A DNA stretch of 34,993 nt from a virus, in the IMG/VR virus record IMGVR_UViG_3300032241_001214, positions 1-34,993 of that record; one strand, given 5' to 3'. This document shows, piece after piece, positions 1-34,804 of the stretch; within the stretch, counting starts at the first letter, position 1; each line of letters opens with the position of its first letter. A program made the position numbers and the translations under genes. Under the pieces are notes generated by a model. The model made no database searches. It saw nothing but the letters and a program-made list of their open reading frames with translations, and had not been told where the DNA came from.

Positions 1-520
1 CACCATAAACATTATGAGGACGAATAATACAATAATCTAAACCATGTTGTTCATTAGCTATTTGAATATCCATTTCACAAGCATACTTAGCTACACCATA
101 TGGATCAATTGGTTTAGGTACTTGAATTTCATCAAATACACCTCCACTTCCGTGACCATAAACAGCTAACGTTGATGTAAATACTAAACGTTTAACATCA
201 TGTTTAATACATTGATTAATAATTCTAGTAGTTGCTACTAAATTATTTTCATAATTATATTGTCTAATAAATGGAGATAATCCCTCAGCAGCGTATGCAG
301 CAAAATGAAATACATAATCAATATCTCTTTTAAAAATAGGATCTAATTCTGAATCCACTAAATTGCGTTTCCAAAATTCTACTTTAGGGTTGACATTTTC
401 TCTGTACCCTCCAGATAAATCATCTGTACCAATAACCTCTACTTCAGGTTTATTTTCTACTATCCAATCTGCTAATCTACTGCCTAGTAGGCCGGCAACG
501 CCTGTTATTAGTACTTTCAT
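1..520 (-). CDS. NAD-dependent sugar-nucleotide epimerase/dehydratase (extended SDR), 3' end outside window
   Basis: The first 173 codons read from an ATG at 520 and the gene continues past base 1. The protein starts MKVLITGVAGLLGSRLADW, which contains the Rossmann GxxGxxG dinucleotide-binding motif (GVAGLLG). Further on it has an FHFAAYAA segment, FTSTLAVYG, and the catalytic YxxxK (YGVAK), followed by an RPHNVYG segment. This order is typical of extended short-chain dehydrogenases such as UDP-glucose 4-epimerase or GDP/dTDP-sugar epimerases and dehydratases; the substrate cannot be told. Its ATG overlaps the stop of the radical SAM gene upstream by one base (TAATG), so it is probably translationally coupled. 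It sits at the end of a glycosyltransferase cassette, which suggests it makes or alters the nucleotide sugar used there. Confidence 0.9.
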   Translation of the reverse strand, partial: MKVLITGVAGLLGSRLADWIVENKPEVEVIGTDDLSGGYRENVNPKVEFWKRNLVDSELDPIFKRDIDYVFHFAAYAAEGLSPFIRQYNYENNLVATTRIINQCIKHDVKRLVFTSTLAVYGHGSGGVFDEIQVPKPIDPYGVAKYACEMDIQIANEQHGLDYCIIRPHNVYG

Positions 521-1986
521 TAAATTAATTTTTTAATTGCTTTTGGTTGTGTAGGAGCAGGAACCGAATACTCTCCTCTTTCAAAGTGAGTTATCGCTCC
601 TTCTCTCATAGGTACATATTCTATATTTAAATCTACTTCTATTTTATTATACCAATCTGCTAATTCAGGAAAGGTAGCTTGAAAATTTTTATTTCTTCTT
701 ACATCATATTGCGTATAAAAAGATTTAAAATCGTGTATCAATAAATCATTATCATCTTCAGTATTATTATGGCCTTTCTTAACTATTTCAATATAATCAA
801 TTAATCTTTCAATTTGTGCTTTTTCACCAGCATTAAATAAAGGATTTTTCTTATTTCTACCATACCATAACTTTAGCTTAGTATGAAGTGGTTTTTTAAT
901 TTCATCTGGTAATGTTAGTGGAGACATAAATCCTGGCCATCTAAGTATGTTTAAGTCTACCATTGGTCTATTAGCTCCATATTTAGCCTTTAATTCTAAC
1001 ATATCATCTAAAAATTCATCAATGCTAAATAAACACAAACTATTAATAGTCATCATTACTGTTATAGATCTAAAATTAGCATTTTTAATGAATTTAACTA
1101 AATTAGCTCTCCATGCTTGATAATTTAAACCATCACGAATATATTCAGCTTGAGCTCCATATGCTTCATTACTAGTGTATAAATCAAATGCTTTAATATC
1201 AATTTCTTTAGTCATTTGTATTACTCTATCTAACACTTCATCTTTCATTCCTAAATTAGAATTGACAGCCAATACCATGTTTTTAGCAGGATATTGTTTT
1301 AGTGTTTCTATAAAGTTCCAAAAATTAAAGCTGGCACTTGGTTCACCACCTGTAACTCTTACTTCTTGTAATTCTTTAGATAGTTCAGGCCACCATGCTA
1401 AAAATGCTTCTACGTAAGGATTAAATTGACTATTCTTACCAAATTTATCAGCCCAATCTCCATTATTTTGATACGCTTGAGCAGATACAGATTTAAATTT
1501 TTGATAAGGACCATGTTGATTTATATCTTTTCCCCAAGTTGAACTATATCCTGCATTACAATAGCTGCAAGCAAAATTACAAGTTCTATCAAAACTAATT
1601 TCTACTGTTCTTAAATTAACATCTTGATGATATGGGGTTTTTGAAATACGTCTTATATCTTCGTCTGAGTATATAATGCTTTTATAAACACGATCTGTAA
1701 CGTTGTCGCGGCCAATATCTTCAATTTTCCAACAATAAGAGCACTCTGCGGGACGTTTACCATCTAGCATCATTTTTCTCATTTCTTTTTTATGAGAAGT
1801 ATTATGTAACGCTGATGGTCTTTTTTTAATTTCCTCTAAATTAATTGGGTGAGGTAAGGGTAAATGGCATGAATTAGTAAAACCATGTCCTAAGTGCAAA
1901 CTAGCATTTAACCACTTTGCAGCACAGAAACTTGGACTTACTTTATTTAATCTACTATCCCTCCACAACCTTAATTCTTCAGACAT
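520..1986 (-). CDS. Radical SAM protein with N-terminal twitch/SPASM-like cysteine region
   Basis: 488 residues. The radical SAM cluster motif CxxxCxxC is seen as CNFACSYC (Cys136, Cys140, Cys143), followed by a GGEP motif (VTGGEPSASF) that in this superfamily contacts S-adenosylmethionine. Before the core lies a second Cys set: Cys21 (SFCAAKW), Cys40 (NSCHLP), and Cys82/Cys85 (ECSYCWKIED). That pattern is like the twitch/SPASM auxiliary-cluster regions, here placed N-terminal to the barrel. Such proteins are often found in phage and marine metagenome glycan clusters; the substrate is unknown. It lies between the GT7 pair and the epimerase. A TATAAATA sequence just before the start overlaps the upstream stop codon, but the gene probably belongs to the same transcript as its neighbours. 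Could act on a sugar or on a peptide. Confidence 0.85.
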   Translation of the reverse strand: MSEELRLWRDSRLNKVSPSFCAAKWLNASLHLGHGFTNSCHLPLPHPINLEEIKKRPSALHNTSHKKEMRKMMLDGKRPAECSYCWKIEDIGRDNVTDRVYKSIIYSDEDIRRISKTPYHQDVNLRTVEISFDRTCNFACSYCNAGYSSTWGKDINQHGPYQKFKSVSAQAYQNNGDWADKFGKNSQFNPYVEAFLAWWPELSKELQEVRVTGGEPSASFNFWNFIETLKQYPAKNMVLAVNSNLGMKDEVLDRVIQMTKEIDIKAFDLYTSNEAYGAQAEYIRDGLNYQAWRANLVKFIKNANFRSITVMMTINSLCLFSIDEFLDDMLELKAKYGANRPMVDLNILRWPGFMSPLTLPDEIKKPLHTKLKLWYGRNKKNPLFNAGEKAQIERLIDYIEIVKKGHNNTEDDNDLLIHDFKSFYTQYDVRRNKNFQATFPELADWYNKIEVDLNIEYVPMREGAITHFERGEYSVPAPTQPKAIKKLI

Positions 1987-1995
1987 ATTTTTTAT

Positions 1996-3429
1996 TTATA
2001 ACGTTACGTTAATCATTTTCGCTTTTGGTGTTAATTCCTCAACACTAACTAAATTATATTTTAAGGTATTCATACCATCTTTTTTATAATCTATTTTTCC
2101 CTGCTGCATACCCATTATATACCTATATTCATTTTTAGCAGTTGTTTCACCTTTAATCCATTTTCCTTCATTATATCCCTCATCAGGATGTTCTAAACAA
2201 TCCATTCGTCCTGGTGTTCTATAAGGAACAATAGTATGAGGTACTTTAATTTGTTCTTCAAGTAGTTCACAGTTTATTACTAAACCATTATTGTTATTGC
2301 CCGTTGAATCCTTTAATAACCTATCATGATCAACTTCATAATCTAATACTAATCCATCAGAAAGAGTATTGTTAAATGAATTTATTATTTCTTCATTGCC
2401 TAAACACCTATTCCATATCATTAACTTAGCTATGTCACCTTTAAAATATTTAGCAGGATCTTTATCATCTAAAAAATAAGATATTCCTAAATAATAATCA
2501 GTATCGTATTTTCTTAATCCACCGTTGTATTTAGCAGGTGAATCACTTCCTGTTCCAGAGGATGTTTGTGATTCAATTCCGTTCATATAAACATGAATTA
2601 ATTTAGCATCAATATCAACAGTAAATGTAACCCAACTCCATTGATTTTCATAACGTTTCATCCATTGGTATGTAGGTTGGTTCCACATGTCCCAAAGCAT
2701 TACTGTATATGCTCTGGAGTTATTGTAAGATAAACCGTAATCATATCCTGGTCGTCTAAATATTGGGTATTCAATGTATTTTTTATCTTGTGATCCTATT
2801 AAGTAAATAGGCATTTTATCTTCTTGATGAAATGCTCTTACTAACATAGAAACAGTATGTGATTTATGAGTAAGATCGTTTAATGTTGGACTGTTAAGAA
2901 TTTTAACATATGAACCATTCCCATTAAATCTTAAAAATGATTTTGTTTTATTATAATCAACATAACTTGTATTAACATATCCTTCTAATACACATCTCCA
3001 AAATAAATCATCATCTTCCATTCCCCAATCCCAATAATCATTTGAATATCCGTTAGTACGTTCTACTTGTTCTTTTGTAAACAAAACAGCACCTCCAAAG
3101 TAATCTTCGTACTTTAAATGGTAATTATGTTTTGAAATATTAACAGCAATATGTCTTGGATTGTCAGCAGGATATGAATAATCACAAGCATCATCTTCAG
3201 GTATCATATCAATATCATGCCAAACTATATAATCACAACCATCTTTAAATGCTTGTTCAGCAGCTACATTTTTCATAGCTCCTCTATTAAATAATTTGTC
3301 ATCTACTTGATGACCAAAATACATACAGTAATCTATACCTCTATCCTCTAAAAATTTACCTACACGAGGAATAAATTCTTTTAAATGAGTTTCTCTATTT
3401 CTATATGGTACACATACTCCTAATTTCAT
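1996..3429 (-). CDS. GT7-type galactosyltransferase with inserted LamG-like domain (copy 2)
   Basis: 477 residues. The N-terminal part matches the beta-1,4-galactosyltransferase family: PYRNRETHL (8-16), FNRG (47-50), the metal-binding HDID (71-74), YFGG (110-113) and the hallmark WDWGMEDDD (133-141). From about 164 a LamG/concanavalin-type domain begins (SFLRFNGNGSYVKI), with a WVTFTVD..HVYMNG core near 266-284 and an LMIWNR..GNEEI strand near 336-347. The segment after about 400 returns to GT7: a DCLEH motif (410-414) and DGMNTLKY (451-458), comparable to the MIRH and DGLNSLTY parts of vertebrate enzymes. So the lectin-like domain seems inserted in the catalytic domain. In the metal site Cys411 is where Met is usual. 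The start overlaps the upstream paralogue by four bases. Expected to transfer a hexose from a UDP-sugar; acceptor unknown. Confidence 0.85.
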   Translation of the reverse strand: MKLGVCVPYRNRETHLKEFIPRVGKFLEDRGIDYCMYFGHQVDDKLFNRGAMKNVAAEQAFKDGCDYIVWHDIDMIPEDDACDYSYPADNPRHIAVNISKHNYHLKYEDYFGGAVLFTKEQVERTNGYSNDYWDWGMEDDDLFWRCVLEGYVNTSYVDYNKTKSFLRFNGNGSYVKILNSPTLNDLTHKSHTVSMLVRAFHQEDKMPIYLIGSQDKKYIEYPIFRRPGYDYGLSYNNSRAYTVMLWDMWNQPTYQWMKRYENQWSWVTFTVDIDAKLIHVYMNGIESQTSSGTGSDSPAKYNGGLRKYDTDYYLGISYFLDDKDPAKYFKGDIAKLMIWNRCLGNEEIINSFNNTLSDGLVLDYEVDHDRLLKDSTGNNNNGLVINCELLEEQIKVPHTIVPYRTPGRMDCLEHPDEGYNEGKWIKGETTAKNEYRYIMGMQQGKIDYKKDGMNTLKYNLVSVEELTPKAKMINVTL

Positions 3430-4775
3430 ATTCCTACTATTACGTGGGTTTGTTTATCTGTTCTTACGTGAGAATGTTCTTTATATTTTAAATTAGATAA
3501 ACCATCTAATTGTTCGTCTCTATGTCCTTTAATTACCTCATTAGCATAACGTAATTGATTATATCTTGTATTTATATCCTTCCAACTACCATTTACATAC
3601 CCTCCTTCACTATGAGAAATACAATCAAATTCTGATTCTCTTCTAACTGGAATAAATACAATTTCTGATTCTTTGTAGTCATAAGGTACTAGTTCACAGT
3701 TGTAAATATGCCCTTTATTTCCATGACCACTTAAATCTATTAATTGATAATTTTTAATAAATTTAGCATCATAATATGTTTTTAAACTATATGAATTTTT
3801 ATAATTTCCAAAATCTTGAGTTAATCCAAAATGTTTATTTTGTGATATCTCTTTTATTTCCATTTCATGTAATACCTCATTATACATTGCTAATGAATGT
3901 ATAAGTCCTTGATATTTGTCTCCTAAATAGAAACAATTATCATCGTTATTATCTAAATCACTCAATTCCGTAAATCCTATTGATTCACCATCTTGATATA
4001 ACTCTAATACATTTTCATTTAGTGTTATAACTAAATTAGTTTTGTAAGGATGTGATCTTTCCGAATTAATATAAAATATTTTTCCTTTACTATTAGTAAC
4101 AGTTACTTTATATTTTTGAAATGAATCATAAGATATCTTTAAATTTATCTTTGGTAAAGAGAATATAACAAATTCATCATCATACGCCTTATAATCTAAA
4201 ATTAAGTCTTTTACCTCAAAAGATACAAGTACAGTCATGTTTTTAACACCAACTTTATTTGTTGCTTTTACTTGAGAATCCATACCATTAAATCGTAAAG
4301 CAGCAGTATGACTATCAGGAATTTTTATTTCTTTCTTATCTAAGAATAAATTATGTGATTGACATCTATAAAGTAAATCATCATCCTCAAACCCCCATCC
4401 CCAATATTCATTTGAGTAACCATTTATTTTTTTAAATAATTCTACTGGGAACATAGTTACACCTCCAAAGTATTCATCAAATGATGCTCTTTGAGAGGCT
4501 AAATGAACGGGAATAGCTGAGTATGAATAGTCTACATTTATAGGTAGCATATCAGCATCATGGAATACTACATAATTACAACGTAATTTTTGAGCATAAA
4601 GAAATCCTATGTTTAATAGCATTCCTCTATTAAATAGTTTTCCATGATCTTGCTCTATAATAATTAGTTCAAAATCGATACCTTTAGCAGTTAAATAGTC
4701 CGATATAGACTTTTTAAATGCTTGAAGATGTTCCCATCTAGCCCTATAAGGTACAATTACTCCTAATTTATCCAC
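3426..4775 (-). CDS. GT7-type galactosyltransferase with inserted LamG-like domain (copy 1)
   Basis: 449 residues, a diverged paralogue of the next gene with the same architecture. GT7 motifs: PYRARWEHL (9-17), FNRG (48-51), HDAD (72-75), YFGG (102-105), WGWGFEDDD (125-133). A LamG-like insert runs from about 158 (AALRFNGMDSQVK) to about 360, and its last part has DLSGHGNKG, a common LamG edge. GT7 sequence resumes with DCISH (384-388) and DGLSNLKY (424-431). The start codon is GTG at 4773-4775 and overlaps the TAG of the small upstream gene by one base (TAGTG), so translation is probably coupled to it. The low identity between the two copies, especially in the LamG part, suggests different acceptors. 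Enzymatic class is well supported; exact sugar is not. Confidence 0.85.
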   Translation of the reverse strand: MDKLGVIVPYRARWEHLQAFKKSISDYLTAKGIDFELIIIEQDHGKLFNRGMLLNIGFLYAQKLRCNYVVFHDADMLPINVDYSYSAIPVHLASQRASFDEYFGGVTMFPVELFKKINGYSNEYWGWGFEDDDLLYRCQSHNLFLDKKEIKIPDSHTAALRFNGMDSQVKATNKVGVKNMTVLVSFEVKDLILDYKAYDDEFVIFSLPKINLKISYDSFQKYKVTVTNSKGKIFYINSERSHPYKTNLVITLNENVLELYQDGESIGFTELSDLDNNDDNCFYLGDKYQGLIHSLAMYNEVLHEMEIKEISQNKHFGLTQDFGNYKNSYSLKTYYDAKFIKNYQLIDLSGHGNKGHIYNCELVPYDYKESEIVFIPVRRESEFDCISHSEGGYVNGSWKDINTRYNQLRYANEVIKGHRDEQLDGLSNLKYKEHSHVRTDKQTHVIVGI

Positions 4776-4955: not shown

Positions 4956-5801
4956 TTATATTGATTGTATTAAGTTCCAAACTTTGTTCCAATTATAATG
5001 ATTATAACCCCAAGGTCCTGCCTCCTCAAATCTAAAGTTAGGGTTTGTTATATCTATTTTAAAATCATTTTCTTTTAAGGCGTCATACATTAATTGGTAT
5101 TCCTTAGAAAAAGACCAAGGTGTAGAGGTATCTGCTACATCTTTAATTCGTTCTATACAAGTTGAATCCCATTTTAAATGGTGAACTTGAACATAATATC
5201 TGTTTGTAGGTGCAATCATTGGATGATTCCATCCTTGCCATCTCCAAGTTGTATGTCCATCTATTTTAGCGTAATGTTGTCCTGGTGTTAGTTCTATATA
5301 GCCTTTCATTATACAAACCTTATTAGGACAAGCACCGGATAATGGATATCTAAAAAATCCTGATAATGGAAATTGATCAAGAATAGGTTTATCATCTGTA
5401 ATAACAGGGAAAGTTCCATCAGGGCCTATTCTATCTACAAAACCACCTCTAACTAAATCCCAACCATTATGCTCACAATCTTCTATAATTGTATCTAAAA
5501 ATTGTGAATATAAATGAAATTCATCATCATCAGCAACAACCCACCAATCATTAGGATGCATGTACTTTATCGTATTATACATAAAAGTTACAGCACTCCA
5601 GTTGTATTTATCATGAGTTTCTTGGCATACAATTCGTGCTTTAGGAAATTGTGCTACTATTTCTCTAATTTCAGATATAATACTTTTTTCTTCCCATTCA
5701 TACACACCAATATAAATCTCATCTACTATGTTTGAATAGTATTTTAAGAAATGCGGTAGTATGTTTGTTCTAGAACCAACAACTGTTGCTAATCGAATCA
5801 T
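4956..5801 (-). CDS. Glycosyltransferase, GT2/GT92-like (DDD motif)
   Basis: 281 residues. The N-terminus (MIRLATVVGSRTNILPHFLKY) followed by VDEIYIGVYEWEE fits the first half of the GT-A fold seen in GT2_4/GT92-like enzymes, which describe a person-to-site 'leave home' arrangement of short strands and helices. The acidic metal/nucleotide-sugar motif is DDDEFHLY at 91-98, after WWVVA. The C-terminal half has many His and Trp residues (HTTWRWQGWNHP, VHHLKWD), as in this group. The gene overlaps the methyltransferase upstream by four bases (ATGA), so the two are likely coupled. Donor and acceptor are unknown. Confidence 0.75.
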   Translation of the reverse strand: MIRLATVVGSRTNILPHFLKYYSNIVDEIYIGVYEWEEKSIISEIREIVAQFPKARIVCQETHDKYNWSAVTFMYNTIKYMHPNDWWVVADDDEFHLYSQFLDTIIEDCEHNGWDLVRGGFVDRIGPDGTFPVITDDKPILDQFPLSGFFRYPLSGACPNKVCIMKGYIELTPGQHYAKIDGHTTWRWQGWNHPMIAPTNRYYVQVHHLKWDSTCIERIKDVADTSTPWSFSKEYQLMYDALKENDFKIDITNPNFRFEEAGPWGYNHYNWNKVWNLIQSI

Positions 5802-6520
5802 TTTTTGTTAATTATAGTGATACCACTTGATGATGGCTTAACACTAAAGGTATGAAAATTAAATAAGTTTACCAAATTCCATTCAGTACTTTCTTTTAAT
5901 TCTTCAACCAAACGAGATGGACCATCAAAACGATGGAAATCGGCTTTTGCGTCTTCAGACACAATTAATGATGCTTCATAATTAGCATCTGTATCATGCA
6001 GTATTATGATTCCATTTGGTGATAATATTTTAGAGTATAAATCAAAATCTAATTTTACTCCTTCATATGAATGATCACCATCAATAAACAAAACATCAAT
6101 TTTAATATCTTGCATTACAAAAAATTTGTAATAAGCATCTTCAGAAGTAGCCTTAATAAAACGTGGATAGAAATGAGTTCTATAAAATGAATCTTTATCT
6201 TCTAAATCATTAGGTCCACCTACTCCGTTACAAGCATCAACAACGTATGTTGCCCCTATATCACCCCAATTAAATTCATTATTACCTTCAAATATCTTCT
6301 GCTCATATAAATCGCGTCTTGCTTGCGTCATTATTCTTGGAATAAAGCCCCCGCCTGAGCCAATACACACGCAGTTTTTGGCCCTTAAATGCTGAATAAG
6401 CGCATATACTATAATACCGTCACCCATATGAAGGTCAGTAGCACCATGAGTCCATCTATAGGGGACTGGTGTATCTCCATTGTTAGTAATATTGGATTTT
6501 ATGTAATCTAAATTAAACAT
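5798..6520 (-). CDS. Class I SAM-dependent methyltransferase (Methyltransf_24-like)
   Basis: 240 residues. Motif I is VCIGSGGGFIPRIM near residue 51, the glycine-rich S-adenosylmethionine loop. Further down VLFIDGDHSYEGVKLDFDLY and LSPNGIIILHDTD form the motif pair typical of Methyltransf_24 and CmcI-like O-methyltransferases, where the Asp/His residues can bind a metal. In sugar cassettes such enzymes often methylate hydroxyl groups on glycans, which is the inferred role here. It overlaps the upstream gene by eight bases and the downstream one by four, so it is a central member of one operon. Confidence 0.82.
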   Translation of the reverse strand: MFNLDYIKSNITNNGDTPVPYRWTHGATDLHMGDGIIVYALIQHLRAKNCVCIGSGGGFIPRIMTQARRDLYEQKIFEGNNEFNWGDIGATYVVDACNGVGGPNDLEDKDSFYRTHFYPRFIKATSEDAYYKFFVMQDIKIDVLFIDGDHSYEGVKLDFDLYSKILSPNGIIILHDTDANYEASLIVSEDAKADFHRFDGPSRLVEELKESTEWNLVNLFNFHTFSVKPSSSGITIINKK

Positions 6521-7385
6521 GACCTGTATTTAATAAGTTTGCTATGTTTTGACTTAAATGAGGAAACAATCTAAAGAATGTTTCTAATATATATTGTTTA
6601 TGATCTTTATGATATCCATCACTATCATCTAACGATAATCTCTTTCCTGGGCCTAAGTGGCAAGCGTAATTGTATTGTTTTTCTTTAGCAAATAAACCTA
6701 AACCATTTTCAATCCATTGGTCTTTGCTACAATATAACGTTTCGTTAAATAAATAACGATGATTTAAATTATATTTTTTAATAATTTGCCACAACAATTT
6801 CTGTTCACAAAATACCATATGTAATCCATTAACCATTGGGGCTTTATCATTCATTTCTTGCATCATTCCTAAAGCCATTTCAGCATATTCCTTTCTAATA
6901 TTATCATCCTTAATATATAAGAAAGCAACATTAACTGCTTTATCATCCCAATCCATATCAGGTAATGACATATATTTTTTTATTTGATAAGGTTCAGGAT
7001 AATGATGTGTAGTAATTTCCATAAAATTACCTATAGTATCATTTTCCCAATAATCCGCAGGAATAAAGTCTTGTTTTAAATATAAATCTAAATCTAATAA
7101 AACAAATGGTGCCTGTATTTCATTTATAACTTTTAGTTTAGATGAAGCCCAAAACGCTTTTTTATCTAAATTGTATTGTTTTTTATTTAATACCTCTGTA
7201 TTGATATTATCCCATAAATTAATAATGCCAATTTCCTCTATTATTTGTTTACTTTCAGTATCACAATATAAATGAGTTGTATCATTAGGATAAAAATGCT
7301 TCCATGTAAGGATGGAAGTATATAAGAATGCCTTTTCTAAATTAGAATAAAAGGACATATGTTCTGCACACCAATAAACATTCAT
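6513..7385 (-). CDS. Putative glycosyltransferase (GT-A-like, DLD motif)
   Basis: 290 residues. I do not recognise the family with certainty. The first 110 residues resemble GT-A enzymes: a start MNVYWCAEHMSFYSN, a segment HLYCDTESKQIIEE, then KKAFWASSKLKVINE and LLDLDLYLKQDF, with DLD at 98-100 as the likely metal and nucleotide-sugar site. The C-terminal part has several aromatic and His residues (ACHLGPGKR). It leads the run of overlapping glycosylation genes. An alternative is one of the DUF families of Bacteroidota built on the same fold. The start ATG at 7385 follows an AT-only leader with no Shine-Dalgarno. Confidence 0.6.
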   Translation of the reverse strand: MNVYWCAEHMSFYSNLEKAFLYTSILTWKHFYPNDTTHLYCDTESKQIIEEIGIINLWDNINTEVLNKKQYNLDKKAFWASSKLKVINEIQAPFVLLDLDLYLKQDFIPADYWENDTIGNFMEITTHHYPEPYQIKKYMSLPDMDWDDKAVNVAFLYIKDDNIRKEYAEMALGMMQEMNDKAPMVNGLHMVFCEQKLLWQIIKKYNLNHRYLFNETLYCSKDQWIENGLGLFAKEKQYNYACHLGPGKRLSLDDSDGYHKDHKQYILETFFRLFPHLSQNIANLLNTGHV

Positions 7386-11487: not shown

Positions 11488-14400
11488 TTATAAATATGTT
11501 GCTGTTCCTTTAATACTCCATGTTCCTGTTGTATTAACTATAATATTAAATTGTGCTTGACCACTTACTATAGCAAATGAAGCTGATATAGCTGCTGTAT
11601 TACCAATATCTGTTGTTGAATATTCAGTATAGTTTGCAGTACCACCAGCCCAAACTGCCATTACATGTCCTGATCTAGCATTACCTCCACTATATGCGGT
11701 GTAATTAAAGAAGGCTGATGTAAATGAACCAGTATTATTTTGGAATAATCCTGTTGTTGAACTACCAGGGTTAGAAGCACTATTATAATATATTTGTGTA
11801 CCACCTATTGTATATCCAACAGTTGCTGTTGATGTAGCATATGATGAAGTAGAAGCATAAGATGCACTTGTTGCTGTTGTAGCACTTGTAGCACTTGTAG
11901 CATTTGTTGCATATGAAGCACTTGTAGCAGTTGTAGCATTTGTTGCGTTTGTAGCATTTGTTGCATATGAAGCACTTGTAGCAGTCGTAGCATTTGTTGC
12001 GTTTGTAGCATTTGTTGCATAGGAAGCAGTTAATGCATAAGAAGCAGTTACTGCCGTTGTCGTATAGGAAGCACTGACTGCATTAGATGCTGTACCGAGC
12101 AGTGAGCCGGTATAACCACCTAGTGCTGTAGAACTACCACTTATAATTAAAGCATTATTAATTCTAGTACTTCCACTAACATATAAATTACCTTTAACTT
12201 GTACTTTATCTGTTGTTAAAGCACCACCAAGAGTACTTTGTCCATTTCCGATACCAGGTCCAATTAGTACATTACCATAAATTTGTTCTGATACAAATAT
12301 ATAATCACTACCCGCATTGGATGGATTACCTATTTCGAAAAATGAAGATGTTTGATAGGGTAGTAATCTAAAAATATTAGCAGAAAGATTAGTCGTATCA
12401 AAGCTAACTTCAAATTTTTTAGTGCTACTCTGTAAAAAATATAATGCATTAATATTAGCACTTGAATCTATTCCTACACTAGCATCACTTGCTGATGAAG
12501 AAATATAAAGAGGGTAAGAACCTACTGGAGATGTGCCTATTCCTACTTGGTATCTAGCTGTAAAATTATCCGCTGATGAAGCTGTTGCTGCGTAGGATGT
12601 ACTTACTGCATTTAAAACATAAGAAGCAGTTTGCGCTTGTATAGCATCTGAAGAGGTTACTGCATAAGAACTACTCAATGCATACGATGCTGAAGTTGAG
12701 TTGTTTGCGTATGAAGCACTTACTGCTTGAAGAACATATGATGCAGTTTGTGCTAATGTTACATAAGATGCTGTTTGAGCATAAGAAGCACTTATTGCTG
12801 TTCCTGATCCAGGAGTATATGATGCTGTTAAAGCATATGATGATGTTAATGCTTGAGTTGCATATGAAGCACTTACTGCTTGTAATATATAAGATGCTGT
12901 TTGTGCATTTAATACATAGCTAGCTGTTTGAGCTGTTACTACATATGATGCTGTGTAAGCATTTTGAGCATTAGTTGCATATGAAGAAGTTCCTGAGATA
13001 GAAGCACTAATATAATTAGAAGCAATCCATTTAGATGTTGAGTTTTGCCACATTAGAGGGTAACCATCTATTGATGATCCTTCTGTAATGTTAACATCAG
13101 ATAAGTTTGATAATGATGTTGCTGTTATAGTACCACTTCCACCACTAATACCACCTATACTTCTAAACAATCCACTTGGTATAATAGCGTATGTACTTGA
13201 GTTAGTAAAGCTAGCGTTATTTTGAACTAAAATTGCACCTAAATAAACAGCGTTTGCTGCTGTATTTGGAGCTTCAACAAAGTTTTCTGTGTTAAGGTTT
13301 GCTAAAGCGGTTGGTTGGTCTGCGTAAGTTGCATTGCCATAATAAACTACTATTGCTTTAGTTGTGCTATTAGGGAACCAATATGCTCTTTGAATTGACC
13401 ATTGTCTATTAGATCCATTTCCTGGTACTGCTGTTAAAGTACCATTATTTGAATATTGTGTAGGATCAATTGCAGTATAACCTGCTCCTCCATTTGTATT
13501 ATAAACCCAACCTGAACCAGATTGATAATATCTGAATATTTTAGATACTGTTGTACCTTGGTCTGTTGATTCATAAGCTGGATTATTTGGATCTACAGTA
13601 TAGTTTGCACCATCATCAAATGATGTACCTGCACCTACTACTAAACCACCTGTTGAAGAACCACTTGGTGATAATGCAAATCCAGATAATTTTAAAGGAC
13701 CAAATGCTTTAATAAACACGTTTGATCTTTGTTTCCAACCGTATGCTAATGAAGGTTGGGTTTTAACACCATTTATTGTAGATCTATTTTGATGTAATAC
13801 AACACCAATTGGAATTAAATTATCATATTGACCATCATTATATGGAGTACCTTGAACATATATACTTCCTGTACTATTAATAGCAACAAATGATTGATCA
13901 TAAGATGCACTTAAAGGAGCAATACTTGCTGATAATGTAGGCCAACTTACATATTGTGTAGTTGGGTATGGATCACTACTAGCTGTAAAGGCATTTAGGT
14001 TTACAATAATACCTGTACCTGCTGATATTTGATAAACAGTAGATGATGATTGAGATATAATACCTCCACTTAATAAACCTGTATATAAGTTACCTTCAAT
14101 CCAACGTAAACGAGTATTGTTAGTATATCCATTAGCGTTTTGAGCAAAATATAAATCTTGTGTTGAACCAGAAACATAAACATAAGATGCTGAAATAGCA
14201 GTATTGATGTTTGTAGTTACTGGATTAAATTGCATAAAGCCATTTACATTTATATCTCCATAAATTTGAATATTAGCGGCACCTGCACCTTGTGAACCAG
14301 ATATAGTTACACTACCTGTTAATAAAGTATTACCAGATAAAGTATTATTACCAATTTGTGTAGTAGAACCTGTAATAATTAATGATCCAGTATGTGTTGT

Positions 14401-17400
14401 AGTTCCAGTAAATGTTTGTGAGCCACTTACTAATAAACTACCACTTAAAACGGTATTACCAATTAAAGTATTACTACCTATTTGTGTAGTAGAACCAGTT
14501 ACATTCCAAGAACCTGTTAAATATCTATTACCTACAGTTGTTTGACTACCTGATATATTAAGTGAACCTGTTATTGTTTGAGTACCTATAAATGTATTTG
14601 AACCTGTAGTTGCAAATACAGATGATGCTGTGTTATTTAATAATTGAGCATTTAATGCATATGAAGCGCTTGTTGCATTTGCAGCATAAGAGGCACTTGT
14701 CGCATTTGTAGCATATGAAGCACTAGTTGTATTTGATGCATATGAAGCTGATAATACAGACATTGAAGATGTCTGGTTGCTTGTTATAGCTGAATATCCA
14801 TTTACAGATAAGCTACCTGTTACAGTAACTGAACCTGTTAATTGTTGAGTATTTGTTAAGCTATTACCAAATATATTTGAGCCACTAGCATAATCAGTAC
14901 TTGAAGTAACTGTTTGTACTATTAATGTTTGAGCTGTTAATGTACCTGCAACTGTTAAATTAGTTGCATATGAAGCAGTTGCTGCTGTAGTTGCGTTTGT
15001 TGCATATGAAGCACTTACTGCTTGTAACACATAAGATGCTGTTTGAGCAGTTACTACATATGAAGCAGTTGCTGCTGCAGTTGCGTTTGTTGCATATGAA
15101 GCACTTGTAGCATAAGAAGCACTTGTAGCAACAATAGCATAAGAAGCACTTGTGCTATTATTAGCATAAGATGATGTTAATGCTTGTTTTGCGTATGATG
15201 ATGTTCCTAACAATGAACCAGTTAAGTTACCATTTATACTACCAGTAACATATAAACTACTGCTGATATAAACGTTAAAGTTAGGAGCAATTTGAAAACT
15301 TGGATTATGATCACCTTGGAATCCTGTAAATAAGAATAATGATTGACCACTAGTATAATTACCTAAATAGAAATTATTTCCTACATTATATAAATAGCCA
15401 TCATTTGCTTGTCCAGGACCATATGCTACACCACCATCAAAGTTTTGTCCATTAATACCCATATCAACATAATAATTGTTTTCATTACCATTATTAGCTG
15501 TAGCTACAACGTCTGATGATACTGAATTACCACTATTTAAATTTTGGATATTTAATTGTAAGTAGTTATTTAAGTTACCTTTACCACTAATTACATTGAA
15601 TGAACTTGTTGAAGGCTGCCAAGCAAATAATGCTTCAGGATTTGCTGTAGTATAACTAGTTTGGTTAATTACTATAGTAGATCCTGTTTGGTATACTATG
15701 CTAGGAGTTAGAGATGTATTTGTATTAAATACTGGAAGGTAGTTTGTTGTACCACCTAATATATTTGAAGCTGTTAAAGCATAAGATGCTGTAGTAGAGC
15801 TTGGTGTATAAGATGCTGTTGTAGCATTAGCAGCATATGAAGCGCTAGTTGCGTTTGATGCATATGAAGCGCTAGTTGCGTTTGATGCATATGAAGCGCT
15901 AGTTGCGTTTGATGCATAAGATGCTGTTTGTGCATTTAGTGCATTTGATGCAGATTGAGCATTATAAACATATGAAGCTGTTTGAGCCGTAGTTACATAG
16001 CTTGCTGTTTGTGCTAACGTTACATATGAAGCTGTTTGGGCGTTTTGAACGTAACTAGCTGTTTGTGCTAATGTTACATAAGATGCTGTTTGAGCATTTT
16101 GAACATATGAAGCAGTTTGTGCATTTGCTACATAAGATGATGTTAAAGCATAAGATGCACTAGTAGCATTCGCTGCATAAGATGCACTAAACGCATATGA
16201 ACCAGAAGTACTATTTGGAGTGTAACTTGCAGTTAAAGCGTATGATGATGTAAGTACAGACATTGATGATGTCTGGTTACTTAATATTGCGTTAGAACCG
16301 TTAACTGCTAATGAACCAGTTACTGTAACGCTACCTGTTAATTGTTGAGTATTAGTTAAACTACTACCTAAAATGTTAGATCCGCTACTGTATTCTTGAG
16401 ATGCAGTAACAGTTTGTATTATTAAAGTCTGTGCTGTTAAAGTACCAGCTACAGTAAAATTATTTGCGTATGATGCTGTTTGAGCATATGAAGCGCTTGT
16501 TGCGCTATTACTATTAGTAAATATATTACCATTTACATATGAAGCACTTACAGCTTGTAATACATAAGATGCAGATTGCGCATTTTGTACGTATGAAGCT
16601 GTTTGAGCGTTTAATGCATTTGAAGCAGATTGAGCATTATAAACATATGAAGCTGTTTGAGCATTAAATGCTTGAGTTGCATATGACGCACTTACTGCCT
16701 GTAACACATAAGAGGCTGTTTGTGCATTAGCTACATAGCTAGCCGTTTGGGCGTTTGCTACATAAGAGGCTGTTAGGGCATTTGATGCAGTTGTAGATAA
16801 AACAGCATATGCACTGTAAGATGAACTTACAGCGTTTAATACATAACTTGCAGTTTGAGCAGTTGTTACATAAGAAGCTGTTTGAGCATTTACTACATAA
16901 GATGCTGTTTGAGCATTTAATGCATTTGAAGCAGATTGAGCATTTAATACGTAACTTGCAGTTTGGGCAGTTATTACATATGATGCAGTTTGTGCATTTA
17001 GTGCATTCGATGCAGATTGTGCATTATAAACATATGAAGCCGTTTGAGCAGTTGTTACATATGATGCTGATTGAGCGTTTTGAACATAGCTAGCTGTTTG
17101 AGCATTTGATACATATGAAGCTGTGTTTGCGTTTTGAGCAAGATTAGCATAAGATGCACTTATAGCATTTTGTACATAAGATGCAGTATAAGCATTTTGA
17201 GCTTGATTTACATATGAGGCTGATTGAGCAAAATTTACATATGATGCTGTTAAAGCATTTTGAGCTTGATTTACATATGATGCGGATTGAGCAAAGTTTA
17301 CATATGATGCTGTTAAAGCATTTTGAGCAGTTTGTACATAACTAGCTGTTTGAGCTGTTACTACATATGATGCTGTACCTGCATTTTGAGCAAAGTTTAC

Positions 17401-18171
17401 ATATGATGCTGTTAAAGCGCTTTGCGCAGTTGCTACATATGAAGCAGTATTAGCTTGATTTGCTAGTGAAGCACTTACAGCATTAAAAGAATTAAAGGCA
17501 TAAGATGCACTTACTGCTGTTTGTACATAAGATGCTGTTTGAGCAGTTCCGGCATTAATAGCATAGGATGCAGTTGCAATGTATGCTATATAAGAAGCAG
17601 TTACAGCGTTTTGAGCATTGAAAGCGTATGATGATGTAAGTACAGACATTGAAGATGTCTGGTTACTTAATATAACGGGATTTCCGTTTACTGTTAAACT
17701 ACCTGTTACTAAAACAGATCCTGTTAATTGTTGAGTGTTAGTTAAACTATTACCTAATATATTCGATCCTGAACTAAATTCAGTTGATGCTGTTACTGTT
17801 TGTACTACTAATGTTTGAGCAGTTAATGTACCTGCAACAGTAAAGTTATTTGCGTATGATGAAGTTGCAGTATAAGATGCACTTATTGCAGTTAATGCAT
17901 AAGATGCAGTTAATGCTGTTGTTGCTAAATTGGCTGTGTTGGCTGTATTTGCGTTTTGCGCTGTTAAGGCAAAAGTAGCATAAGATGCACTTGCTACAGA
18001 CCCAGAAGATGATAGGCTAGCAATTTGAATTATTGTTTGGGTACCATTATCCTGTTTAAAGAATAATTTACCGTCATAGGTGTTAAGGGCTAATTCTCCT
18101 AATGATAAATCCGTTGTTTGAGGGACTTTACCAGGGACAGAACTGCGCTTCAATTCAATTTTTGTAGCCAT
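11488..18171 (-). CDS. Giant repeat-rich tail fibre, 2227 residues
   Basis: Begins MATKIELKRSSVPGKVPQTT; residues 5-40 (KRS..PGKVP....LSLGELALNT.DGKLFFK) match the N-terminal domain found in the major tropism determinant and many fibres. Three copies of a ~75-residue module (TVAGTLTAQTL...NQTSSMSVL) lie at about 107-180, 569-642 and 1069-1142. Between them are long runs of nine-residue TASYVxxAQ units with occasional 12-residue units. Two regions lack repeats: about 800-980 and about 1320-1670 (the latter with QRSNVFIKAFGPLKLSGF and IPIGVVLHQN); both look like folded domains. The last ~110 residues (NARSGHVMAVWAGG...GTWSIKGTATYL) look like a beta-rich tip. No S74 chaperone is present, unlike the next fibre. 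Probably a long tail fibre; host range role inferred. Confidence 0.88.
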   Translation of the reverse strand: MATKIELKRSSVPGKVPQTTDLSLGELALNTYDGKLFFKQDNGTQTIIQIASLSSSGSVASASYATFALTAQNANTANTANLATTALTASYALTAISASYTATSSYANNFTVAGTLTAQTLVVQTVTASTEFSSGSNILGNSLTNTQQLTGSVLVTGSLTVNGNPVILSNQTSSMSVLTSSYAFNAQNAVTASYIAYIATASYAINAGTAQTASYVQTAVSASYAFNSFNAVSASLANQANTASYVATAQSALTASYVNFAQNAGTASYVVTAQTASYVQTAQNALTASYVNFAQSASYVNQAQNALTASYVNFAQSASYVNQAQNAYTASYVQNAISASYANLAQNANTASYVSNAQTASYVQNAQSASYVTTAQTASYVYNAQSASNALNAQTASYVITAQTASYVLNAQSASNALNAQTASYVVNAQTASYVTTAQTASYVLNAVSSSYSAYAVLSTTASNALTASYVANAQTASYVANAQTASYVLQAVSASYATQAFNAQTASYVYNAQSASNALNAQTASYVQNAQSASYVLQAVSASYVNGNIFTNSNSATSASYAQTASYANNFTVAGTLTAQTLIIQTVTASQEYSSGSNILGSSLTNTQQLTGSVTVTGSLAVNGSNAILSNQTSSMSVLTSSYALTASYTPNSTSGSYAFSASYAANATSASYALTSSYVANAQTASYVQNAQTASYVTLAQTASYVQNAQTASYVTLAQTASYVTTAQTASYVYNAQSASNALNAQTASYASNATSASYASNATSASYASNATSASYAANATTASYTPSSTTASYALTASNILGGTTNYLPVFNTNTSLTPSIVYQTGSTIVINQTSYTTANPEALFAWQPSTSSFNVISGKGNLNNYLQLNIQNLNSGNSVSSDVVATANNGNENNYYVDMGINGQNFDGGVAYGPGQANDGYLYNVGNNFYLGNYTSGQSLFLFTGFQGDHNPSFQIAPNFNVYISSSLYVTGSINGNLTGSLLGTSSYAKQALTSSYANNSTSASYAIVATSASYATSASYATNATAAATASYVVTAQTASYVLQAVSASYATNATTAATASYATNLTVAGTLTAQTLIVQTVTSSTDYASGSNIFGNSLTNTQQLTGSVTVTGSLSVNGYSAITSNQTSSMSVLSASYASNTTSASYATNATSASYAANATSASYALNAQLLNNTASSVFATTGSNTFIGTQTITGSLNISGSQTTVGNRYLTGSWNVTGSTTQIGSNTLIGNTVLSGSLLVSGSQTFTGTTTHTGSLIITGSTTQIGNNTLSGNTLLTGSVTISGSQGAGAANIQIYGDINVNGFMQFNPVTTNINTAISASYVYVSGSTQDLYFAQNANGYTNNTRLRWIEGNLYTGLLSGGIISQSSSTVYQISAGTGIIVNLNAFTASSDPYPTTQYVSWPTLSASIAPLSASYDQSFVAINSTGSIYVQGTPYNDGQYDNLIPIGVVLHQNRSTINGVKTQPSLAYGWKQRSNVFIKAFGPLKLSGFALSPSGSSTGGLVVGAGTSFDDGANYTVDPNNPAYESTDQGTTVSKIFRYYQSGSGWVYNTNGGAGYTAIDPTQYSNNGTLTAVPGNGSNRQWSIQRAYWFPNSTTKAIVVYYGNATYADQPTALANLNTENFVEAPNTAANAVYLGAILVQNNASFTNSSTYAIIPSGLFRSIGGISGGSGTITATSLSNLSDVNITEGSSIDGYPLMWQNSTSKWIASNYISASISGTSSYATNAQNAYTASYVVTAQTASYVLNAQTASYILQAVSASYATQALTSSYALTASYTPGSGTAISASYAQTASYVTLAQTASYVLQAVSASYANNSTSASYALSSSYAVTSSDAIQAQTASYVLNAVSTSYAATASSADNFTARYQVGIGTSPVGSYPLYISSSASDASVGIDSSANINALYFLQSSTKKFEVSFDTTNLSANIFRLLPYQTSSFFEIGNPSNAGSDYIFVSEQIYGNVLIGPGIGNGQSTLGGALTTDKVQVKGNLYVSGSTRINNALIISGSSTALGGYTGSLLGTASNAVSASYTTTAVTASYALTASYATNATNATNATTATSASYATNATNATNATTATSASYATNATSATSATTATSASYASTSSYATSTATVGYTIGGTQIYYNSASNPGSSTTGLFQNNTGSFTSAFFNYTAYSGGNARSGHVMAVWAGGTANYTEYSTTDIGNTAAISASFAIVSGQAQFNIIVNTTGTWSIKGTATYL
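11490..11497 (-). promoter_or_regulatory. Candidate late promoter motif, 58-residue gene
   Basis: ATATTTAT on the coding strand, 19 nt before the ATG at 11470; it overlaps the last codons of the giant fibre (TAT TTA TAA). Confidence 0.45.
11900..12007 (-). repeat. Two 54-bp tandem repeats near giant fibre C-terminus
   Basis: Units at 11900-11953 and 11954-12007 differ by one base; a partial third begins at 12008. Each codes 18 residues of NATNATTATSASYA type. Confidence 0.9.
14746..14963 (-). repeat. Fibre module copy 3 (~75 codons)
   Basis: Third copy of the module in the giant fibre, coding LTVAGTLTAQTL to NQTSSMSVLS. Boundaries approximate. Confidence 0.85.
14757..14775. repeat. Perfect inverted repeat within fibre module 3
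   Basis: CAGACAT and ATGTCTG arms with spacer TGAAG, as in module 1. Confidence 0.7.
15834..15914 (-). repeat. Three identical 27-bp tandem repeats in giant fibre
   Basis: Three exact copies of a 27-base unit (starting at 15834, 15861 and 15888), each coding nine residues of the type SNATSASYA. Identity at the DNA level implies recent duplication. Confidence 0.93.
16246..16463 (-). repeat. Fibre module copy 2 (~75 codons)
   Basis: Second copy of the TVAGTLTAQTL to NQTSSMSVLT module in the giant fibre; it is preceded and followed by TASYV repeats. Boundaries approximate. Confidence 0.85.
16257..16275. repeat. Perfect inverted repeat within fibre module 2
   Basis: CAGACAT and ATGTCTG arms are identical to those of modules 1 and 3; the spacer differs by one base (TGATG instead of TGAAG). 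Confidence 0.7.
17632..17853 (-). repeat. Fibre module copy 1 (~75 codons)
   Basis: Codes NFTVAGTLTAQTL through NQTSSMSVLT. Two more copies lie in the same gene, and a shorter one in the S74 fibre at about 10998-11160. Boundaries approximate. Confidence 0.85.
17643..17661. repeat. Perfect inverted repeat within fibre module 1
   Basis: CAGACAT and ATGTCTG, seven pairs with a five-base spacer, coding part of NQTSSMSV. The same structure occurs at 16257-16275 and 14757-14775. Confidence 0.7.
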
Positions 18172-34150: not shown

Positions 34151-34804
34151 CTATACATAAATACCACCTTTAACTCCAGGTACCATTTTTCTAATTTGAT
34201 CTTCAGTGTATTTTTTAGCAAGTGGAGTACTATTTAACCAAAGATTACCACCAACTTTTAGATTGTCAGGTAGTGATGTAATTGGAGTATCACTCAAATA
34301 AAGACTACCACCAACTTTTAAATTGTCAGGTAGCGATGTAATTTTAGTACTGCTCAAATAAAGATTACCACCAACTTTTAAATTGTCAGGTAGTGATGTA
34401 ATTGGAGTACCAATTAAATAAAGATGACCACCAACTTGCAAATTATCAGGTAGAGAGGTGATTTTAGTACTGCTCAAATCAAGATTACCACCAACTTTTA
34501 AATTGTCAGGTAGTGATGTAATTGGAGTACCAATTAAATAAAGATGACCACCAACTTGCAAATTGTCAGGTAGAGAGGTGATTTTAGTACTGCTCAAATA
34601 AAGATTACCACCAACTTTTAAATTGTCAGGTAGTGATGTGATTGGAGTACTATATAAATCAAGATCACCTTCTTCTCCGTTTTTTATATATTGTTGTATT
34701 TTTTTTTGGGCAGTAATAAGATGATTTTTTTGACGTTCTTCAGGAGAGCGTCTTGGAACTAAGATTTTACTACTTTCTTTTAATATGTCTATTAGCTTTA
34801 TCAT
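34151..34804 (-). CDS. Leucine-rich-repeat protein with capsid-targeting-like N-terminus
   Basis: 217 residues. Seven tandem 20-residue units, ITSLPDNLKVGGNLYLSSTK and variants, span residues 55-194 (bases 34642-34223). The pattern LPDNLxVGGxLxLxxTxI is a leucine-rich repeat of the bacterial type, a binding scaffold. Units alternate between two versions (NLKVGGNL..SSTK and NLQVGGHL..IGTP), so the array grew partly by duplicating pairs. The N-terminus MIKLIDILKESSK is short, hydrophobic, and ends in LKE before Ser, similar to T4 internal-protein targeting peptides cut by gp21. Its ATG overlaps the upstream stop by four bases, and a terminator follows the gene. Function unknown; might be packaged in the head or act in the host. 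Confidence 0.85.
   Translation of the reverse strand: MIKLIDILKESSKILVPRRSPEERQKNHLITAQKKIQQYIKNGEEGDLDLYSTPITSLPDNLKVGGNLYLSSTKITSLPDNLQVGGHLYLIGTPITSLPDNLKVGGNLDLSSTKITSLPDNLQVGGHLYLIGTPITSLPDNLKVGGNLYLSSTKITSLPDNLKVGGSLYLSDTPITSLPDNLKVGGNLWLNSTPLAKKYTEDQIRKMVPGVKGGIYV
34223..34642 (-). repeat. Seven tandem 60-bp LRR units
   Basis: In-frame 60-bp repeats inside the LRR gene. Two unit types alternate through most of the array, so a 120-bp higher-order repeat is visible. Confidence 0.92.

Follow-up and report, generated by a model that had tools for sequence, protein, structure and literature searches.

Our computational analysis shows that two adjacent genes of an uncultured virus code for GT7 glycosyltransferases, here called A and B, in which the GT7 fold is in two parts, with a LamG domain inserted between them and conserved catalytic and metal residues before and after it. 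The window analysed is the whole stretch of 34,993 nucleotides of IMG/VR record IMGVR_UViG_3300032241_001214. Many uncultured T4-like phages of aquatic origin share the conserved pair. Its domain architecture is new for this known enzyme family, and nothing relevant on a GT7-LamG protein was found in the open-licence literature.

Domain composition of proteins A and B

The genes of A and B are neighbouring minus-strand ORFs that share 4 bp (Table 1). In both proteins the Pfam models GT7N (5e-18 in A, 8e-18 in B) and GT7C (3e-19 and 3e-18, respectively) were found over their curated cut-offs, scoring 65-69 bits where 27 and 23 are required, while Laminin_G_3 (PF13385) reached 51.3 bits in A and 29.7 bits in B with a cut-off of 27.6. 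The series of GT7 motifs that the earlier note had read from the letters (PYRxR, FNRG, HDxD, YFGG, W(D/G)WGxEDDD, DCxxH and DGxxxLKY) was found complete in A and B. The LamG-like stretch that it had put at ~200 residues is present, but it is somewhat longer, at ~220-240 residues (~160-397 in A and ~155-374 in B). A phmmer search of PDB sequences matched A to human and bovine beta4GalT1 (1.6e-30), and since this match was restricted to residues 2-151, any claim on the C-terminal part needed profile or structure tests. The NCBIfam search assigned no family to A or B, and the PHROGs search gave weak glycosyltransferase and virion-LamG matches only.

Table 1. Coordinates in the window of the two GT7-LamG genes, their parts and the neighbouring cassette genes
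Feature	Position	Strand	Evidence and remarks
GT7-LamG protein A (477 aa, ATG start)	1996..3429	-	Pfam GT7N + GT7C + Laminin_G_3; AF2 model
A, GT7 N-terminal part, residues 1-158	2956..3429	-	Donor site; HDID (DxD); WDWGMEDDD (xED catalytic base); phmmer, residue conservation
A, inserted LamG/pentraxin-like beta-sandwich, residues 160-397	2239..2952	-	Laminin_G_3 1.9e-13; VIA
A, GT7 C-terminal part, residues 398-477	1996..2238	-	C411, H414 (C-His metal ligand), DGxxxLKY; hhalign, VIA
GT7-LamG protein B (449 aa, GTG start)	3426..4775	-	Pfam GT7N + GT7C + Laminin_G_3; AF2 model
B, GT7 N-terminal part, residues 1-150	4326..4775	-	Pfam; hhalign vs contiguous GT7s 100%
B, inserted LamG, residues 155-374	3654..4313	-	Laminin_G_3 8e-7; VIA Z 20.9 to PAPP-A
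B, GT7 C-terminal part, residues 375-449	3426..3653	-	H388 invariant; hhalign 98.2%
NAD-dependent epimerase/dehydratase, truncated by window end	1..520	-	Pfam Epimerase 4.3e-32
Twitch-domain radical SAM protein	520..1986	-	NCBIfam NF033640 5.7e-90, 302 bits vs cut-off 170
GT2-like glycosyltransferase, weak match	4956..5801	-	Pfam Glyco_tranf_2_3 1e-4, under cut-off
Methyltransferase (Methyltransf_24)	5798..6520	-	Pfam 2.4e-13
DUF6734 protein, in a subset of relatives (31 loci)	6513..7385	-	Pfam 1.1e-9

Structure models and the split GT7 fold

The input alignments for AlphaFold2 comprised 44 sequences of the A type and 54 of the B type, for which IMG/VR was the main source, and the resulting models were confident, with a pLDDT of 92.6 and a pTM of 0.86 for A, and 94.3 and 0.89 for B. 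Using VIA-align 2, the A model (1..477) superposed on chain residues 180..398 of bovine beta4GalT1 (1tvy; Z 28.1, 1.9 A, 214 residues), and the B model (1..449) on human beta4GalT7 (4irq; Z 26.7, 1.9 A, 202 residues). Both outer parts of the two models superposed on beta-1,4-galactosyltransferases, covering the whole catalytic domain of the GT-A fold. With Foldseek, the alignment to most GT7 rows ended at ~150 columns, as expected where an alignment runs into a large insert. In hhalign profile comparisons, the segment after LamG matched the C-termini of ten contiguous cellular GT7s at 97.1% for A and 98.2% for B, compared with less than 5% for controls in which LamG or the C-terminal part was paired with the wrong parts. 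That the C-terminal ~80 residues finish the GT7 fold, one of the two points on which the earlier note had beforehand let its proposal stand or fall, is thus borne out by superposition and hhalign. The opposite view, that these residues are unrelated to GT7, was considered because they gave no significant phmmer match, and it was rejected, as profiles and structure show GT7 homology.

The middle of A (160-397) was most similar in the PDB to PAPP-A (Z 21-22), 4dqa (Z 21.3) and pentraxins (~18-19), and that of B (155-375) to the LamG domain of PAPP-A (Z 20.9) and the Bacteroides protein 4dqa (Z 19.4). Over both middles the values were Z 20-22 for PAPP-A LamG and 16-19 for pentraxins, with ~170-199 residues aligned and an rmsd of mostly 2.2-3.2 A. 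In agreement with the second of the two points, a beta-sandwich in this region, both models therefore contain a complete sandwich of the concanavalin/pentraxin (LamG) type. It differs from Laminin_G_3 domains and pentraxins in being embedded in an enzyme and in carrying an LxYDF...DxSGNxNxG motif at the domain end. A circular permutation of LamG was suspected at one stage, but the strand order matches that of pentraxins and we make no such claim. Profile comparison showed that the insert of A is a homologue of that of B (hhalign 100%, 25% identity).

In a residue-by-residue comparison, the insert stands at what we take to be residues ~331-336 of bovine beta4GalT1, and H414 of A presumably corresponds to H347; the numbering was anchored by the mutant names M344H and C342T in the structure matches. 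The insertion site is the loop that joins the strand after the xED helix to the C-His strand, at the base of the C-terminal acceptor-side region. The beta-1,4-galactosyltransferases are animal relatives of these proteins and include the lactose-making enzyme. Proteins A and B share with beta4GalT1/7 (CAZy GT7; PF13733 + PF02709) the catalytic fold, DxD, W-loop, xED base, C-His and the C-terminal DGxxxLxY, and they differ in that a LamG domain of ~220-240 residues replaces ~six residues, that no N-terminal stem or membrane anchor was seen in the ORFs, and that the acceptor loop after C-His is different. Contiguous bacterial and viral GT7s (e.g. L161 and L288) have the same GT7 parts, and query A4 matched them at 41-59% identity; unlike A and B they are ~190-290 aa long or fused to other domains, and they contain no LamG. 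The contiguous catalytic domain of the usual GT7 architecture is absent from A and B, where LamG lies between the parts. Since a complete fold remains when the insert is disregarded, we regard both proteins as a variant architecture and not as non-members of GT7. Taken together, Pfam order, models and the hhalign comparison of the C-terminal part uphold the earlier proposal of a LamG inserted within the GT7 catalytic fold of both proteins.

Conservation of catalytic and LamG residues

Conservation was scored over 155 A-type and 129 B-type relatives. In both types the Asp of DxD and the Asp of xED were kept in 99-100%, C-His, which lies beyond the insert, in 98-100%, and the Tyr that corresponds to beta4GalT1 Y289 in 97-99%. 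In the animal enzymes a Tyr of this kind goes with UDP-Gal. These residues suggest that A and B are probably Mn-dependent transferases, with UDP-galactose as the predicted donor. The metal site is thus split by the insert at the C-terminal acceptor-side base, yet conserved.

A third set of GT7-LamG paralogues (n=31) was heterogeneous, with more degraded catalytic motifs; examples of such erosion are L054:2768-4258, L131:4204-5679, L087:4222-5700 and L146:4239-5711. In the first of these DxD is lost and FHSPYFIP stands in its place, and from its sequence it may be a pseudoenzyme. The loss of DxD in some third copies would fit the view that A and B are themselves GT7-like lectins without catalysis, but with DxD, xED and C-His at 98-100% in both types we consider this very improbable.

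LamG was less conserved than the GT7 parts. Near-invariant residues were nevertheless enriched at residues 219-264 of the A-type LamG (16/31, p 1.6e-5), a patch that may serve for ligand binding or as an interface between domains and that is not matched in detail in B. LamG and pentraxin folds bind proteins too, and the fold does not imply a lectin function.

Relatives and origin of the insertion

When IMG/VR viral contigs were queried with the GT7 part, 498 relatives were obtained, the best 80 of which were retrieved for analysis. Over all ORFs collected, the lengths of GT7 ORFs were sharply bimodal. LamG lay between the N and C parts in all 313 of the 313 full-length long relatives in which N, C and LamG were recognisable, which is far beyond chance, and it was absent from all short GT7s (42/42). 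The gap between the GT7 parts had a median of 243 residues in all long GT7 ORFs, as compared with 1.5 in the 42 short ones. The choice of queries biases the set of long proteins, although a contiguous cellular GT7 query retrieved both kinds. The few long GT7 ORFs without LamG were either GT7s joined to the end of other domains or distant proteins of the GT2 type. In L163:4975-6678, L307:2329-3654 and L349:2323-3642 a contiguous GT7 comes after 220-340 residues, which in L163 look GT2-like by eye; this layout is reminiscent of the two-domain chondroitin polymerases. Chance or misassembly as the source of the architecture is ruled out by the hundreds of relatives.

A tree of 106 N-terminal parts obtained by a free quick search required two changes of the insert label and placed the A-type apart from the B-type, with weak inner support. 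This topology is what an independent, convergent insertion of LamG in A and in B would produce; however, the two inserts are homologous and their insertion point is identical, and when all insert-bearing rows were held as one clade the likelihood rose 9.2 log units above that of the free quick tree, with a p-AU of 0.62, so that the one-clade tree scores higher and is not rejected. We therefore judge two separate insertions to be improbable. The claim of the earlier note that the insertion is older than the duplication is favoured by the shared position, the homologous inserts and the one-clade tree, and it falls short of proof in that the free tree needs two changes; a single insertion preceding the duplication is the favoured reading of the sequences.

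The gene cassette

The GT7-LamG genes lie in a conserved cassette composed of a methyltransferase, a GT2-like glycosyltransferase, two or three GT7-LamG genes, a Twitch radical SAM gene and, in many cases, a stand-alone LamG gene. This wider cassette, the stand-alone LamG gene and the third paralogue of some phages go beyond what the earlier note had described. Of 106 non-identical loci, 98 have the radical SAM gene directly behind the last GT7 gene, 83 have the last two GT7 genes side by side, 47 show the 4-bp overlap, and 29 carry three GT7 genes. In 100 of 105 loci the GT2-like gene lay at most two genes upstream, and in 98 of 105 the methyltransferase lay at most three genes upstream. Genes related to the NAD-dependent epimerase/dehydratase occurred in 73 of 140 loci, and NDP-sugar epimerase, dTDP-sugar isomerase, TPP-enzyme and cytidylyltransferase genes were frequent additional members.

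The gene after radical SAM belonged to the stand-alone LamG family c4 in 63/95 loci, and this family was homologous to the inserted LamG across nearly its full length (hhalign 99.7%). Family c14, which followed in 21/95 loci, is more distant and probably related to c4. Stand-alone LamG genes right behind the radical SAM gene are seen, for example, at L127:8557-9291 and L039:8850-9689; in the window no such gene follows radical SAM, and the epimerase is present there.

Proposed function and alternatives

We propose that A and B are inverting, metal-dependent GT7 transferases of the GT-A fold, with UDP-galactose the probable donor, and that LamG would sit on the acceptor side, holding the glycan or glycoprotein to be extended. 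The two enzymes may work one after the other on a single glycan built by the cassette, the stand-alone LamG encoded in related cassettes would bind this glycan as well, and the product would most likely decorate a late phage product, e.g. a tail fibre, or else the host envelope. This reading, from competent transferases to late-product decoration, is one in which we place moderate confidence as a whole. In GT-A enzymes, acceptor sites are formed by loops inserted at a few positions together with residues near xED and the C-terminal tail, and large expansions at the acceptor regions have been read as a sign of acceptor recognition (PMC7185993, PMC7948508). As LamG stands at the base of the C-terminal tail, where such sites form, it is most simply, and most likely, an acceptor-holding module, the role that the earlier note had suggested for a glycan or virion acceptor. 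The proposal as a whole is also supported by a bacterial copy that adjoins GT2, ABC exporter and HlyD genes.

LamG could instead be a docking module that binds a partner protein (the tail fibre, other cassette enzymes or the paralogue) and anchors the transferases, possibly on the assembling virion. Protein binding is frequent among LamG and pentraxin folds, PAPP-A and pentraxins are among the best PDB matches, LamG recurs across several cassette proteins, and it is known in phage virion proteins (PMC7824862; phrog_8510). A docking module would, however, be expected at a terminus, whereas the insert lies in the C-terminal acceptor-side region, and the near-invariant polar and aromatic patch in A is compatible with either view; we consider docking unlikely. 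As for the glycan, the cassette might remodel an O-chain or capsule of the host envelope late in infection and so exclude other phages, with GT7-LamG extending a lipid-linked glycan. Glycosyltransferases in the host-recognition clusters of T4-like pelagimyophages and cyanomyophages have been read as modifying the host O-chain (PMC7029224, PMC7824862), and many cassettes carry the NDP-sugar epimerase, dTDP-sugar isomerase and cytidylyltransferase genes named above. On the other hand, the neighbourhood of the phage cassettes showed no recognisable flippase, polymerase, ligase or export gene, and the cassette has the same orientation as the late structural genes and, in the window, comes immediately after fibre genes, one of them with a Peptidase_S74 domain, which leans towards the virion as the site of the acceptor. 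Envelope remodelling thus appears somewhat unlikely. A further suggestion, which we put forward only tentatively and hold to be doubtful, is that the cassette is self-contained and reuses the LamG module, in two or three GT7s and the stand-alone protein, as a common handle by which a phage-specific glycan would be passed between enzymes, including the radical SAM modifier.

The current view of GT-A enzymes is that they acquire new acceptors via loops at few fixed positions (PMC7185993, PMC7948508); in A and B the addition is an entire binding domain. The proteins offer a natural test of whether domain insertion can change acceptor choice and a possible template for enzymes carrying a built-in acceptor handle. 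They also mark an undescribed glycan cassette in an apparently common lineage of uncultured aquatic T4-like phages. The pelagimyophage host-recognition clusters resemble the window in belonging to T4-like phages and in having glycosyltransferase and radical SAM genes near tail fibres, but the paper that describes them names GT8 as the main family and mentions neither galactosyltransferase nor laminin (PMC7029224).

Phages and bacteria that carry the genes

The terminase of the window belongs to the T4-like group, its closest matches being those of Flavobacterium phage immuto (56%) and of Microcystis phage Mel-JY01 (48%). Among 18 contigs bearing the cassette or a relative, 15 had a terminase 48-82% identical to that of the window. 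In the records behind L078 and L036 (G182 and G178), the terminase matches contain one in-frame TAA, which may reflect a break of the frame, an intervening sequence or an error of assembly. Neither A, B, the radical SAM protein nor the GT2-like protein had a match in 50,697 cultured-phage records, and the contiguous cellular GT7 query likewise had none there.

Beyond the phage-like contigs, full GT7-LamG genes turned up in two MAGs of a Fibrobacter-type genus, with a single copy per MAG. The first copy (L157:5941-7431) is flanked by helicase and kinase genes and, at its opposite end, by genes for GT2, an ABC transporter and HlyD, and in the second (L156:409-1884) the gene lies beside a GT2 gene. 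Among 168 Fibrobacterota genomes the full protein was absent beyond those two, the other matches being partial and in the LamG region. Gene exchange between phage and bacterium is a possible source of these single copies.

Two further features of the window were observed. Positions 11488-18171 code for a 2227-aa protein of TASYxxxAQ-type repeats, which is probably a long fibre; composition probably accounts for the Pfam match of this protein to Plasmodium HRP. Positions 34151-34804, beside the terminase gene, code for a small leucine-rich-repeat-like protein with DNA repeats of 60/120 bp (93% matches at period 120), a pattern that suggests a recent repeat expansion.
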